Of a stretch of DNA of 35,340 nt, positions 5,789 to 11,035 are shown one piece after another (within the stretch, counting starts at the first letter, position 1; every line of letters begins with the position of its first letter). The translations under genes were made by a program, and so were the position numbers. Below the pieces are notes generated by a model. It was not told where the DNA came from, did not search any database, and saw only the letters and a program-made list of their open reading frames with translations. This stretch comes from an uncultured Clostridia bacterium. Lineage in GTDB: Bacteria; Bacillota; Clostridia; Lachnospirales; CAG-274. The stretch covers positions 1-35,340 of the forward strand of contig CALWRD010000159.1 of NCBI GenBank assembly GCA_944383875.1, written 5' to 3'.

Positions 5789-6373
5789 ATGGAAAATAAA
5801 ACTGAATACAAAGGACTTAAATTTTACTGGATTTTATTTATCAATACATTTTATATAAGCGCTTTCACAGTCGGCGGAGGATATGTAATTGCCGGAATAC
5901 TGCAAAAAACATTTGTAGATAAGCTTAAACTTATAGATGAGGACGAAATGCTGGAGCTGATTGCCATAGCTCAGTCTGCCCCCGGGCTTTTGGCACTTAA
6001 TACCTCTGCTGTAATAGGTTACAAACTGCGTGGACTAAAAGGTGCCCTTGTTACCGTGCTCGGTGCTGTATTGCCACCATTTATCATCATAATAGCAGTA
6101 TCCTATTTCTATCACGCTATTAAGGATAACGAGGTGGTTCAAGTTGCCCTTTCCTTTATGCAGGTCGGCATAGGTATTGTAATACTTGATGTTGTTGTAG
6201 GTATGTTCCAGAAGGCAATGAAAAATGAAAGAGCATTCAAAATCCCTGTGTTTATTGCTGCATTGCTTGCATCACTTGTATTTAACGTAAATGTAGGCTT
6301 TATCGTTCTTGCAAGCGGTACACTTGGATTTCTTTACACTTATTTTAAAGGAAAGGCGGGTAAGAAAGCATGA
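5789..6373 (+). CDS. Chromate transporter family protein, N-half (CHR domain)
   Basis: 194-aa single-domain CHR membrane protein. Conserved opening FYISAFTVGGGYVIAGILQ with the glycine-rich T-x-GGG-Y motif, then the AIAQSAPGLLALNTSAVIGY region and about six helices. Short CHR proteins act as pairs of opposite membrane topology; the partner starts at 6370 with a 4-bp ATGA overlap, so the two are translationally coupled. GGAG lies five bases before the ATG. The family exports chromate in studied cases, but in anaerobic gut bacteria the physiological anion is not established. Confidence 0.9.
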   Translation: MENKTEYKGLKFYWILFINTFYISAFTVGGGYVIAGILQKTFVDKLKLIDEDEMLELIAIAQSAPGLLALNTSAVIGYKLRGLKGALVTVLGAVLPPFIIIIAVSYFYHAIKDNEVVQVALSFMQVGIGIVILDVVVGMFQKAMKNERAFKIPVFIAALLASLVFNVNVGFIVLASGTLGFLYTYFKGKAGKKA

Positions 6374-6972
6374 ATATATATATCCGGCTTATTATAAGCT
6401 TTTTCCAAATAGGACTGTTTACTTACGGCGGCGGCTATGCTGCACTTCCGCTAATAAAATACCACTGCGTTGATAAAATGCACTGGCTTACCATGACAGA
6501 GTTTAATGACATATTAACAATTTCCCAGATGACCCCCGGTCCCATAGGTATTAACAGTGCCACATTCACAGGTTTTACCGTTGCGGGATTTGGCGGTGCA
6601 TTTTGCGCTACATTTTTTAACGTTCTGCCATCTTTTATAATAGTGGTTTTGTTAGCCAAGATATATTACAAATACCGTTCCCTTGACTGGATGAGGGGAA
6701 TAATGCTCGGCTTAAATCCGGCAGTCGTTGCCATGATAGCCTCAGCCGGTTTATCCGTAGTATATACCTCTGTTTTCAACGACACAGGTGCGGAATATAT
6801 TATCAGGGGTATCAAATTAATTTCAGAAAGCATTAATATCAATTTGCTTTCAATAACACTCTTTATAATAGGATTTATTATAATTAGAAAGTTTAAGCTT
6901 GGACCTGTAACAATGATGATAGGTACCGGATTTTTCGGAACTGTAATACACTATGCACTTAAGTTGCTTTAA
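6370..6972 (+). CDS. Chromate transporter family protein, C-half (CHR domain)
   Basis: 200-aa single-domain CHR protein, partner of the gene immediately upstream. It begins LIISFFQIGLFTYGGGYAAL, the same FxxGxxTYGGGYA signature, followed by ISQMTPGPIGINSATFTGF, the conserved APGP-like loop of the family, and several hydrophobic helices. The 4-bp overlap implies fixed stoichiometry with the first half. The two copies are diverged from each other, as expected for an old heteromeric pair rather than a recent duplication. Downstream lies a hairpin-rich spacer whose last stem-loop may terminate the transcript. Confidence 0.9.
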   Translation: MNIYIRLIISFFQIGLFTYGGGYAALPLIKYHCVDKMHWLTMTEFNDILTISQMTPGPIGINSATFTGFTVAGFGGAFCATFFNVLPSFIIVVLLAKIYYKYRSLDWMRGIMLGLNPAVVAMIASAGLSVVYTSVFNDTGAEYIIRGIKLISESININLLSITLFIIGFIIIRKFKLGPVTMMIGTGFFGTVIHYALKLL

Positions 6973-6980
6973 TATGTAAT

Positions 6981-7291
6981 GGGCTCTTCGCCCGCCCTTT
7001 AACGCTCGCTATGACGAGCGTTCAGGCTGTCGAAAAAGTCGACAGCCTTGCAAGAAATGCTTGCATTTCTTGCAGTAGGGGTACTGGCGTACCCACCAAG
7101 GAAGTAACAACCCGTGCCTCAAAGAGGGCTTCGCCCTCATTTCGACACTCTTGTTATACCCTCGGACGGGCAAAGCCCGTCCTGCGGATTAAAGTCTGCG
7201 ACGCTAGTTGCAAATTACGTGGTTGCAGACTTCAAAATTTCGATTAAATTTAAGTTTTTTGACAATCTGAACGCTCGCTATGACGAGCGTT
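6981..7291. repeat. Array of about nine stem-loops bounded by two identical 22-nt hairpins
   Basis: This spacer holds successive strong inverted repeats. They are GGGC/GCCC (6981-6993), AACGCTCG/CGAGCGTT (7001-7022), AGGCTGTCGA/TCGACAGCCT (7024-7048), TGCAAGAAATGC/GCATTTCTTGCA (7049-7074), GGGTAC/GTACCC (7079-7094), GAGGGC/GCCCTC (7124-7138), GGACGGGC/GCCCGTCC (7164-7182), AAGTCTGC/GCAGACTT (7192-7232), and again AACGCTCG/CGAGCGTT (7270-7291). The 22-nt units at 7001 and 7270 are identical. It is more GC-rich than its surroundings. It looks like a mosaic of REP/MITE-like palindromes; a structured RNA is the other possibility. No protein gene is credible across it on the plus strand. Confidence 0.7.
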
Positions 7292-7486
7292 ATTTTTTAT
7301 TATATCAAGTATTTTAAATTCAACTGAAATATCCTCATCCTCCCTTGGCAGTTCACCACCGCTGAACTGCGGATAAAGCATACCCCACCAATTATAATGT
7401 GTCCCTGCATCATTTCCGGATGTTTGCTGCATAGGTAAAGACATAATCACTGCTGCCGCAAGTGCAACCCAACTTTTGTTAATCAC
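7250..7486 (-). CDS. Small putative secreted protein, C-terminus formed by a repeat
   Basis: 78-aa ORF starting at GTG 7486 with AAGGAGG seven bases upstream. The first ~24 residues (MINKSWVALAAAVIMSLPMQ...) look like a signal peptide or membrane anchor. The middle is YNWWGMLYPQFSGGELPRED, and the last ~14 residues (NNARHSERSDCQKT) are encoded by the AACGCTCG palindrome and what follows it. The gene may be a small real protein whose original 3' end was replaced when the repeat inserted, or a decaying fragment. No family recognised. It is divergent from the pectate lyase gene. Confidence 0.45.
   Translation of the reverse strand: MINKSWVALAAAVIMSLPMQQTSGNDAGTHYNWWGMLYPQFSGGELPREDEDISVEFKILDIIKNNARHSERSDCQKT
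7270..7300 (+). terminator. Candidate plus-strand terminator formed by the second 22-nt palindrome
   Basis: The AACGCTCG/CGAGCGTT hairpin (7270-7291) is followed by ATTTTTTATT on the plus strand, and no other terminator is visible after the chromate transporter pair. The identical copy at 7001-7022 lacks a T-run, so the hairpin alone is not diagnostic. Confidence 0.45.
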
Positions 7487-7621
7487 TTTATTTCCTCCTT
7501 ACGACGTTTATCTGCATATATATTTATTATTTCTTGTACTAAAAAAAATATACTTATCAGTTTTGTATTTTTGTGAAGTTTAACCAAAAATAAAGTTAAT
7601 ATATACGTTTAATAACATATA

Positions 7622-7630: not shown

Positions 7631-7687
7631 ATGTATAAGGACTTACATAAGTCTGAAAAAAATACACAACAGAAAGGAGCAACTAAA

Positions 7688-10600
7688 ATGAAGCGAAAAT
7701 TTTTATCTGCTTTACTTGCTTTTTCATTGGCATTCACTGCCGCTTTCGGCAGCATAAACGTGTTTGCCGCCGAAGGTGACATAGAAGCATTTGCGGTTGA
7801 TGATACCACATACAACTTCCGTGACACCACCGATCTGGAAACCAGCTTTGAAATCAACTCTGCGGGAGATGAAGTGCTTACACTTACTTGGCCCGCTGTT
7901 GACAAGAATGGTACCATAATCAAAACAAACCCTCTGAGAAGTACCTCGGAATACGGCAATCCCATGGGAAGTTGGACTTCCGTAACACAGGGCATGGTAA
8001 TAGCTTATTCAGGTTGGGATATAGAGGGGGTTTCTCAAAATCCGACCAAAACCTCCACCGGTGACGAACAAATACTGATGGGGTTGACATCAACCACTAC
8101 CAACTATCCTGTGTCCATTGTTGATGCACATGACTCCAATATTCAGCTCGGTACAGCTTATTTAAGTGATGAAGTTGTATCTGCAAGCGGTTTTGCAACT
8201 GCTTATGTCGTTGAATACTCCAAAGACGGTGTTGAATTTACACAGGATCACGTGGTAAGCTCTATTGATCACGGCAAAAAGCTTGTGCGTATAAATGATG
8301 ACGGCACAACAACCAATGACAGAGGAACAACTTATTTCCTCCGTGATCAGTTTGTTGAAGAAATGGCTTCACCTCTTGAACCTGATACCGAATACACTAT
8401 TCGTGTAAGGGCTACAAATGCAAACGATACTTCCGTTACATACCGTAGTTTTGAGCAGAAAGTCATTACGCCCGAAGCTGCCGAAAAGACCCCTGCTTTT
8501 GCCACCGTTGAAGGCGGCGGAACATATTCGCAAGGCGGACGTGGCGGAGATGTCTATGTTGTTACCAACCTTACAGACAGCGTAAGCGATCCTCAGCCCG
8601 GTTCACTGCGTTACGGTCTTTTAAGAAAGGATCGTGCAGACGGCAATACTACTGCTCCACGTACTATAGTATTTGCTGTGGGCGGTACAATTAATGTTGA
8701 TGAAACCGCATCCAAATCAGCCCGGAGATTTAATATAACCGACAACACCACAATACTTGGACAAACAGCTCCCGGTGAAGGAATTACCATAGCAGGTGCC
8801 TCCATTAAATTTACCGGTGAAAATATCATAGTCAGATATGTTGACTTCAGGCTTGGAGGCGGCTATGACCTTGATGCCGCAACCGCAACCGGAAGATATA
8901 TAGTAATTGATCACTGTTCATTCAGCTGGGGTGTTGATGAGGTATTTTCAGCAAAAGAAATTCTTAACTCCAGTATACAATACAACATTATGTCTTCAGG
9001 ACTTGCCGTACCTGACAAAAACGGAATAAATAACTCCGATGCGGAAATTGCATCCGGTGAGTCAGAGGCAAAACACGGTATGGGATCTATCCTGAACGGC
9101 TATGAAGTTAGCTATACCCATAACCTCTGGGCACACAACGGCACAAGAAATCCACGTTTTGAAGGTGGTTTTGAATACAACGGTGTACGCTACGAAAACA
9201 AAATAGATTATGCTAACAACGTTGTATACAACTGGGGACATAATTCAACCTATGGCGGCGAACGCGGAAACGGACAAATGAATTTTGTAGGGAACTACTA
9301 TAAGCCCGGTCCGGAAACACTTGAAAAGGTTAAATATCAATTTGTTGACTGCGATGCCAGCGGAAGTTATAAAAGCTCATATTATGTTGACGGAAATATT
9401 ATGACCTCCGACGAAAACGTTACGGCTAATAATGAATTGGGCTTCTCCGATTCTCAAAACGCAGTACTGCTCAGCGAACCTGTTGAGCTTTTAGTACCTT
9501 ACACCGCAAGCTCTGCCGATGAGGCATACAATAAGGTACTTAGCACAGTAGGCTCAAGTCTTCACCGTGATGCTCAAGACGCAAGACTTATATATGAAGT
9601 TGAAAACGGTCTTGGTGCATTTATTAATGACCAAGCTGAAGCAGGCGGTTGGAGTACTGCCGTTTATGAATCCGAGCTTATAGACAGTGATTCAGACGGC
9701 TTACCTGATGATTATGAAACTCAAAACGATCTTAATCCTAATGATGCTTCCGATTCTGCCGCATTGATTACAGATGAAAACAGCATATACTACGGATATT
9801 CAAATATCGAAGTATATGCAGGCAATCTTGTTGGTGACTGGGACAATATGGTAACAGCTGAAGAGGCACCAGATGTACAAATCGGTCAAATACTTGATGC
9901 AAACGGCAACAATATTTTGACAGAAAACGGCAATACTACTCTTACAGTGGGTCAGACATATACGATAGTACCTTCAAAAACAGTTGCCGATACAGACATT
10001 TACTTAAATGACAGAATTGTTACAGATAATAACCTCAGCTTTACTCCTGATGAAATAGGTGTATATAATCTTTCTTGCTTAAGTACAGAAAATGGTTACA
10101 GCAGCTTTTCGGTAGCTGTACCTGTATCAATTATAAGCGGCGAGTCTAACTTGGAAGGATATACCTCAGTTGACATAGGTACTGTTGGTGCAGTCGGTAC
10201 GGATAACTATGATGCATCTACAGGAACACTTTATTCACAAGGTGCAGGACGTATTGGACGAACAAATACCTCCAGCGCACAAGGACCTGATGCCTTTCAC
10301 TTCAACTACAAGGAAGTAACAGGTGACTTCGAATTTATTGCTAAGATGGATAACCTTTCTAAAATCGACTATGCCCAGAAGTCAGGTATAATGGTTCGCA
10401 GCAGTCTTGCTCCAAGCAGCGAATTTTATATGGCAGCCCTTACCTACCTTAAAGGTGAAGACTACGAAGGTATTACCGATATTGCAGGTGAAAGTGTAAA
10501 GGCGAAAAATATTATAGCAATGATGCGTATCCATGAGGGTCAAAACTCAGGTACAGGCAAATTCCTTGGTATCCCTATTGTCAGAGTTGACAGAGAAAAG

Positions 10601-11035
10601 AACATGGGCTACGGAAAGATAACAAGAGTTGGAGATGTAATCACTATTTCCGCCTCCCTTGACGGAACACAGTGGTATACACTTGCTGAATACACCACTA
10701 CGCTTCCCGATACTTGCTATATCGGCTTTGCTACAGAAGCCGCACAAGATACGAGTGAAAAGGTTCGCTACAATGTAACAGCATTCAGCGAAATTACACT
10801 AAATGAAACCCCTGCATCACTTTTGTTGGGTGATACTAATTGTGACGGTATAATAACTGCTTATGATGCAGCAATGATTCTTCAATACAGCCTTGACGCT
10901 ACATCAGTGGATATCAGTGAGCAGGGTCTTAAAAATGCAATGGTTCTTACTGAAAATATATATACAGCAAATACCGCTGCCAATATACTTCAGAAAGCCC
11001 TTGATGCATCTTTCCTCTTCCCTGTAGAAAGATAA
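7688..11035 (+). CDS. Secreted multidomain pectate lyase with C-terminal dockerin-like module
   Basis: 1115-aa extracellular enzyme predicted to cleave polygalacturonate by beta-elimination. Order: signal peptide (1-28); fibronectin-III-like region (about 30-260, ending PDTEYTIRVRA); a PL1-like parallel beta-helix (about 268-655) with GGRGGDVYVVTNLTDS, PGSLRYG, RTIVFAVGGTI, VIDHCSFSWGVDEVFS and NLWAHNGTRNPRF; a calcium-binding thrombospondin-3-like loop DSDSDGLPDDYETQNDLNPN (about 665-685); an Ig-like stretch; a laminin-G/DUF1349-like beta-sandwich (about 822-1035); and GDTNCDGIITAYDAAMILQ (from 1048), a good first dockerin repeat. The second dockerin repeat (TENIYTANTAANILQKAL) lacks calcium ligands. 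ATG 7688 is chosen for AGAAAGGAG and because it starts the signal peptide. Terminator follows. Class of PL1-like fold is firm; subfamily is not. Confidence 0.9.
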   Translation: MKRKFLSALLAFSLAFTAAFGSINVFAAEGDIEAFAVDDTTYNFRDTTDLETSFEINSAGDEVLTLTWPAVDKNGTIIKTNPLRSTSEYGNPMGSWTSVTQGMVIAYSGWDIEGVSQNPTKTSTGDEQILMGLTSTTTNYPVSIVDAHDSNIQLGTAYLSDEVVSASGFATAYVVEYSKDGVEFTQDHVVSSIDHGKKLVRINDDGTTTNDRGTTYFLRDQFVEEMASPLEPDTEYTIRVRATNANDTSVTYRSFEQKVITPEAAEKTPAFATVEGGGTYSQGGRGGDVYVVTNLTDSVSDPQPGSLRYGLLRKDRADGNTTAPRTIVFAVGGTINVDETASKSARRFNITDNTTILGQTAPGEGITIAGASIKFTGENIIVRYVDFRLGGGYDLDAATATGRYIVIDHCSFSWGVDEVFSAKEILNSSIQYNIMSSGLAVPDKNGINNSDAEIASGESEAKHGMGSILNGYEVSYTHNLWAHNGTRNPRFEGGFEYNGVRYENKIDYANNVVYNWGHNSTYGGERGNGQMNFVGNYYKPGPETLEKVKYQFVDCDASGSYKSSYYVDGNIMTSDENVTANNELGFSDSQNAVLLSEPVELLVPYTASSADEAYNKVLSTVGSSLHRDAQDARLIYEVENGLGAFINDQAEAGGWSTAVYESELIDSDSDGLPDDYETQNDLNPNDASDSAALITDENSIYYGYSNIEVYAGNLVGDWDNMVTAEEAPDVQIGQILDANGNNILTENGNTTLTVGQTYTIVPSKTVADTDIYLNDRIVTDNNLSFTPDEIGVYNLSCLSTENGYSSFSVAVPVSIISGESNLEGYTSVDIGTVGAVGTDNYDASTGTLYSQGAGRIGRTNTSSAQGPDAFHFNYKEVTGDFEFIAKMDNLSKIDYAQKSGIMVRSSLAPSSEFYMAALTYLKGEDYEGITDIAGESVKAKNIIAMMRIHEGQNSGTGKFLGIPIVRVDREKNMGYGKITRVGDVITISASLDGTQWYTLAEYTTTLPDTCYIGFATEAAQDTSEKVRYNVTAFSEITLNETPASLLLGDTNCDGIITAYDAAMILQYSLDATSVDISEQGLKNAMVLTENIYTANTAANILQKALDASFLFPVER

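Follow-up and report, generated by a model that had tools for sequence, protein, structure and literature searches.

A 247-bp MITE between two copies of a terminator hairpin, and the whole-hairpin duplications of its IS1182-family relatives

What kind of sequence fills an intergenic spacer almost entirely with stem-loops and closes it on both sides with the same hairpin? The question is raised by positions 6981-7291 of a contig from an uncultured Clostridia bacterium, of which the whole stretch analysed (the window) comprises 35,340 nucleotides. The first-pass annotation had described nine stem-loops, richer in GC than their surroundings and framed by identical 22-nt hairpins, and had offered as explanations a BIME- or MITE-like mobile palindrome, a chromosome-organisation site or a structured transcript. 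Comparison of sequences leads us, with considerable confidence, to read the locus as a non-autonomous 247-bp MITE mobilised by the IS1182 family, which inserted in the terminator hairpin that separates a chromate-transporter-like gene from a small ORF converging on it, duplicating the whole 22-nt stem-loop.

The description of the locus largely held. Repeat search verified that the outer hairpins, AACGCTCGCTATGACGAGCGTT at 7001-7022 and 7270-7291, are identical, and the same pattern found no third match in the window at up to three mismatches (expected 0.02). Folding is stronger than chance would give: as single-stranded DNA, 6981-7291 reaches -79.4 kcal/mol compared to a shuffle mean of -41.2 (z = -9.98, equalled by 0 of 100 shuffles), and 7023-7269, folded as RNA, has a z of -6.61 (0 of 200 shuffles). 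The stem-loops number about nine to ten, roughly as claimed, the tally varying with the treatment of the compound stem at 7105-7156. The G+C of the stretch (0.47-0.49 in 300-bp windows) is above that of the immediate flanks, as had been stated, but is equalled by some coding windows nearby. The parts of the locus, and what identifies them, are listed here.

6370..6972, plus strand: chromate-transporter-like gene (ChrA family), the upstream ORF, whose 3' terminator is the target site
7001..7022, unstranded: target hairpin, left copy (target-site duplication); repeat, pattern and end-pair searches
7023..7269, plus strand: MITE, 247 bp, CAG...CTG; genome copies, paired ends and nhmmer hits
7023..7037, plus strand: left terminal inverted repeat, CAGGCTGTCGAAAAA
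7255..7269, minus strand: right terminal inverted repeat, CAGATTGTCAAAAAA as read on the minus strand
7024..7048, unstranded: internal hairpin 1, overlapping the left end; compensatory changes between genera
7049..7074, unstranded: internal hairpin 2, TGCAAGAAATGC/GCATTTCTTGCA; compensatory changes
7079..7094, unstranded: internal hairpin 3, GGGTAC/GTACCC; near-invariant in own-lineage copies
7105..7156, unstranded: compound stem TAACAA/TTGTTA with inner GTG/CAC and GAGGG/CCCTC; compensatory changes
7164..7182, unstranded: internal hairpin GGACGGGC/GCCCGTCC; compensatory changes between genera
7182..7204, unstranded: near-invariant core CTGCGGATTAAAGTCTGCGACGC, common to copies of ten genomes
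7270..7291, unstranded: target hairpin, right copy (target-site duplication), retaining the terminator T-tract
7292..7301, plus strand: ATTTTTTATT, the T-tract of the original terminator; conserved beside a single hairpin in a congener

The product of the upstream gene scores 92.6 bits against NCBIfam ChrA, which is under the cut-off of 250 bits. The small ORF on the minus strand (window 7270-7490; VINKSWVALAAAVIMS...IIKNNARHSER) converges on the terminator of this gene; if the element is removed and its flanks are brought together, the frame stops at the hairpin (...NNARHSER-stop), and the element, where present, abolishes this stop and lengthens the frame by six residues (SDCQKT). Further along the plus strand, the product of a large ORF of 1134 aa (7631-11035) weakly resembles pectate lyase PelZ (95 of 840 bits), and sequence related to this region occupies the same place in the congener G001. 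Just 5' of the left hairpin lies the palindrome GGGCTCTTCGCCC (6981-6993), which is missing at the G001 site.

The source genome is a draft assembly (2.07 Mb, 189 contigs, 92% complete), and a search of it with 6975-7300 (E<=1e-5) returned related copies at 30 places on 28 contigs, counted by hand, which bears out the suggestion of a MITE-like mobile palindrome. The best full-length matches span positions 47-297 of the query, reaching from the inner edge of one hairpin to that of the other, so that the shared unit is 7023-7269 and both the outer hairpins and the GGGCTCTTCGCCC palindrome lie outside it. The unit starts with CAGGCTGTCGAAAAA and ends with TTTTTTGACAATCTG, and it has the features of a MITE: it is short, carries no transposase gene (no ORF of at least 80 aa within 7023-7269), has imperfect 15-nt terminal inverted repeats, is flanked by a perfect 22-nt target-site duplication and occurs in many dispersed copies. 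In the same search the 22-nt unit was matched at this locus only. Inspection of the flanks of 30 loci revealed that complete copies each sit between two copies of one hairpin and that the hairpin differs per copy; among own-genome copies with both ends, eight of nine have a duplicated hairpin, each of different sequence, the exception being L004. The outer hairpins were therefore ruled out as element ends, since their sequence differs from copy to copy while the interior is common, and what had been taken for the frame of the element is better described as a host terminator duplicated at insertion. Across 121 loci, 37 candidate end pairs were obtained, a denominator that includes several alternative pairings of one locus that are probably not elements; 24 of them had a flanking direct repeat with a score of at least 10, compared to a fraction of 0.022 among permuted flank pairs (self-pairings included), and 22 of the 24 repeats fold as a stem-loop (not so in L034 and L046).

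Copies of the element also vary internally. Modules of about 60 nt, consisting of three hairpins with a closing stem (e.g. GCACTTTTGC..GCAAAAG CC GCCC..GGGC ..TGC), are inserted inside it at recurring points (L009/L016, L021, L024 and L029; at another position in L007, L014, L015, L027 and L028), and copies lengthened in this way measure 299-419 bp among those with both ends. A second own-genome type (L011, L013, L014, L017, L018, L019, L024) has the left and core parts in common and the ends GGGCTGTCGCC and GGGTGTTAATGCGACACCCCC, and its copies lack a duplicated hairpin. Hairpin duplication is likewise absent from many copies, in the same genome, of a variant whose ends are GGGCTGTCGC; the flanks of L017, ACAGATA and TATCTGT, could be the arms of an interrupted hairpin, as reported for IS1272. 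Contigs C92 and C6 hold degenerate or partial copies, and single matches resembling the terminal repeat on C164 and C73 were considered as ends of longer elements and dismissed, with no partner end or transposase nearby.

An element-free counterpart of the locus exists in G001, whose chromate-transporter-like protein is 86% identical to that of the window. At the same point it has one hairpin, the conserved TTTTTTATTAT tract and then related downstream sequence in the same order. The hairpin differs in sequence from that of the window, and the G001 site is thus an orthologous terminator and not the exact ancestral site. Before insertion, the parent site would have consisted of a single AACGCTCG...CGAGCGTT followed by ATTTTTTATT.

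As the MITE encodes no transposase, the source of its mobility has to be sought elsewhere. Transposases of the PF05598 and PF13751 type (DUF772 / DDE_Tnp_1_6) had no match in the source assembly (92% complete, 189 contigs); within the bacterial family, 12 of 48 genomes contain PF13751. One of its carriers, the locus L071 from a sister genus, contains a 1511-bp transposon with the ends CAGTCTGTCAATAAA and CAGTCTGTCAAAAAA (end motif CAGTCTGTCAAWAAA) and with ACCGCCGCATTATAAATGCGGCGGT on both sides, and its transposase scores 417 bits against NCBIfam NF033551 (IS1182 family; cut-off 270). In L071 (1361-3190) this transposon is directly followed by a related MITE, and three copies of the same hairpin stand before, between and after the two, which indicates that a hairpin, once duplicated, may again become a target. 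The two neighbours differ in that the transposon has the transposase gene and the MITE does not, and their interiors look unrelated on inspection. More generally, the IS1182 family (NF033551, e.g. ISEfa7) and the MITE have in common the terminal repeat CAGNYTGTCRAWAAA, terminator targets and whole-hairpin duplication: the ends of the MITE match those of transposons with an IS1182-family transposase, and the targets of both are palindromes or terminators. The locus belongs to a family of IS1182-type MITEs that extends across one bacterial family and, judging from the shared ends and footprint, an IS1182-family transposon probably moves it.

The same footprint recurs on IS1182-family transposons. 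Scanning genome contigs with the L071 transposase yielded 444 confirmed relatives, of which we surveyed the best 80, anchoring the ends on CAG; 63 were testable, having both ends and enough flank, and the other 17 were left out (contig end too close in 11, no usable end pair around the longest frame in six). The following figures all refer to these best 80 of 444. A duplication of 19-42 nt (median 26) was present in 51 of the 63 testable copies; of 6198 permuted flank pairs, none attained the threshold. All 51 duplications fold with at least 5 pairs (median 10 bp, -15.9 kcal/mol; shuffled duplications, median -2.7). In 48 the dyad is centred, with equal numbers of unpaired bases at both ends (0/0 in 35, 1/1 in nine, 2/2 in three and 3/3 in one), and in three the numbers are unequal. 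The first base of the duplication is A in 44 of 51 and the last is T in 42, and 47 of 51 have a terminator-like A-tract before or T-tract after. Several of the surveyed loci come from one genome, with flanks unique to each locus. By a loose test, 56 of the 63 copies have a hairpin abutting the left end and 55 have one abutting the right, compared to 224 of 1816 random positions. No duplication was found in 12 of 63. On inspection, unlike hairpins abut the two ends in L124, L128, L148, L168 and L170, for which recombination between copies could be the source; one end matches the pattern with two or three mismatches in L132, L133, L158, L160 and L197, where it may have been misplaced; and L194 and L195, both from Enterococcus avium, have perfect ends and no whole-hairpin duplication, L195 having only a partial arm on the left.

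A before/after pair is provided by plasmids. The linear plasmid pELF_AA94 of E. faecium (L203) carries an IS1182-like element, relatives of which are annotated as ISEfa7 in other records, with the 25-nt hairpin AAACGATGCCTATTTAGCATCGTTT on both sides. When its flanks were joined by one copy of the hairpin into a 400-base query, all 400 bases were matched at 100% in two other plasmid records, and 28 of 40 matching records matched at least 80% of it. Two hairpins with the insertion sequence, one without it and otherwise identical flanks mean that one hairpin becomes two on insertion. This E. faecium comparison is based on L203 alone; left out were L202, of which the exact pattern finds the left end only, and L204-L207, which represent one common site with unlike flanks and no duplication, adjoining an IS256 transposase gene.

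How might a whole hairpin be duplicated? Transposition probably joins the element across an extruded cruciform of the terminator hairpin, which would set the two feet of the hairpin side by side whatever the length of its arms. Gap repair would then copy each arm, and the length of the duplication (18-42 nt in the hairpin cases) would be set by the hairpin and not by a fixed stagger. We infer a folded, cruciform target because a duplex cut of fixed stagger would not give duplications of 18-42 nt that track the hairpin. Joining at the 5' feet with duplication of the stem-loop corresponds to pathway b, put forward as hypothetical in Fig. 13 of Wan et al. (2017; PMC5678879, excerpted text), and our data support this pathway for a broad, mostly Firmicute IS1182 set and for the MITE in the window. 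Opinion can be evenly divided over the more specific proposal that a broad IS1182 branch targets a four-way junction, its transposase binding the extruded terminator cruciform and joining at the 5' feet of both arms, in which case the duplicated stretch would be the arm itself, of no set length.

Other readings of the locus must be weighed against this one. That the 311-nt stretch forms, with its outer hairpins, a single composite BIME/REP-like repeat moving as a unit would agree with the dense hairpins and the identical ends, yet the outer hairpins are copy-specific and only the inside is common, the genome search matched the 22-nt unit nowhere else, and full-length matches at other places start from its inner edge; we give this reading almost no credence, and a chromosome-organisation site likewise found no support. 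Hardly more credible is that the hairpin duplicates arose by later recombination or slippage between palindromes, beside an element inserting without duplication. Such insertion has precedent in IS1272, which in the excerpted text of Wan et al. (2017; PMC5678879) follows a replacing pathway with loss of the target stem-loop and no duplication, and which, together with TnSha1, shows loss of part of the hairpin and no duplication in that of Furi et al. (2016; PMC4923244); the unlike hairpins on the two sides of some copies would also fit. Near-perfect duplications at 51 of 63 different sites, with a centred dyad in 48 of 51 (among the best 80 of 444), and a before/after plasmid pair that is otherwise identical in sequence speak against it. 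A better case, although still a doubtful one, can be made for a target recognised as a transcribed hairpin, an R-loop or single-stranded lagging-strand DNA instead of a double-stranded cruciform, given that the terminator-like tracts in 47 of 51 sites (among the best 80 of 444) are places where transcription could expose it; whole-hairpin duplication, however, would need both strands to be joined at opposite feet, for which a cruciform appears the simplest arrangement.

The remaining reading, that the element is kept mainly as a structured or regulatory RNA and that its mobility is past history, seems improbable to us, but it draws on real features of the interior. We aligned 35 copies from ten genomes, chosen from 92 nhmmer hits by setting aside repeated loci, fragments and copies into which modules had been nested, and, separately, 18 copies of the own lineage (41 pairs). 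Across the 35 copies, 97.6% of cells in three helices are paired, and two-sided changes occupy 95 cells compared to a shuffled mean of 26.7 (0 of 500 shuffles; slid partners at most 16); the near-invariant CTGCGGATTAAAGTCTGCGACGC adjoins a hairpin whose sequence changes. Among the 18 copies, 94.4% of cells are paired and 56 are two-sided compared to 22.5 in shuffles (0 of 500), while the number of pairs with a two-sided change is unexceptional (10, with 8.2 expected; 66 of 500) and further pair types are fewer than in shuffles. The compensatory changes that had been called for are thus present and, like the near-invariant core, agree with an RNA. Against it, no Rfam family reached the gathering threshold (best matches at chance level, E 1.1-2.8), and the copies are located at unrelated terminators. 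G-U intermediates are few in the interior helices, so that selection on DNA hairpins or upkeep by template switching is as likely as RNA, and either would suffice.

Most DDE transposases generate a short duplication of fixed length, which results from the spacing of the two cuts. A duplication of 18-42 nt that matches a stem-loop from foot to foot suggests that DNA structure, and not sequence or fixed spacing, sets the cut in the insertion of the MITE and its IS1182-family relatives. If so, cruciform-directed transposition would become directly testable and the build-up of IS1182-type elements in terminators would be explained; in practical terms, foot-to-foot duplication provides a simple rule for locating precisely where IS1182 elements and their MITEs begin and end. 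As the hairpin is copied whole and one copy keeps the T-tract, terminator function could survive the insertion. Should four-way-junction targeting prove true, terminators would be self-renewing safe landing sites, as the tandem of insertion sequence, hairpin and MITE in L071 might illustrate, and the covarying hairpins of the MITE would owe their upkeep to this or a related requirement for folded DNA.

Several known systems resemble the one described here in part. The REP-targeting insertion sequences IS1397 and ISPpu10 also insert into palindromes, but their target is the conserved REP sequence, whereas here the sequence of the target varies and folding alone is common. The pneumococcal BOX elements are modular, hairpin-rich, non-autonomous repeats and share with the MITE the presence of nested modules; they differ in sequence and host and are not known to duplicate a terminator hairpin. 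The bacterial MITEs covered by a review (PMC10969869), in the main text of which the term IS1182 is absent, are likewise short, multi-copy, hairpin-rich and intergenic and have terminal inverted repeats, but, as far as that text goes, the MITE in the window differs from them in duplicating a complete hairpin of variable length instead of a short fixed target. IS1272 and TnSha1, according to excerpts of PMC5678879 and PMC4923244, also target potential hairpins, often terminators, without a primary sequence consensus. Replacement of the IS1272 type is not what we find, however, as the hairpin is present twice here and is duplicated in 51 of 63 IS1182 copies (best 80 of 444). Palindromic targets in the IS1182 family were noted by Siguier (2015, as cited in the excerpted PMC4923244), and a 2025 paper (PMC12056078, in excerpt) has IS1182 transposases acting with or without duplication and sometimes on target structure. 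Within the PMC literature, a scope outside which most subscription papers and ISfinder lie, we found no survey of whole-hairpin duplication. Palindrome targeting, stem-loop replacement and, as a hypothesis, the duplication pathway are already known from that literature, and the duplicated-hairpin footprint is a variant of this known structure-directed insertion, for which the present analysis gives broader documentation than the literature searched.
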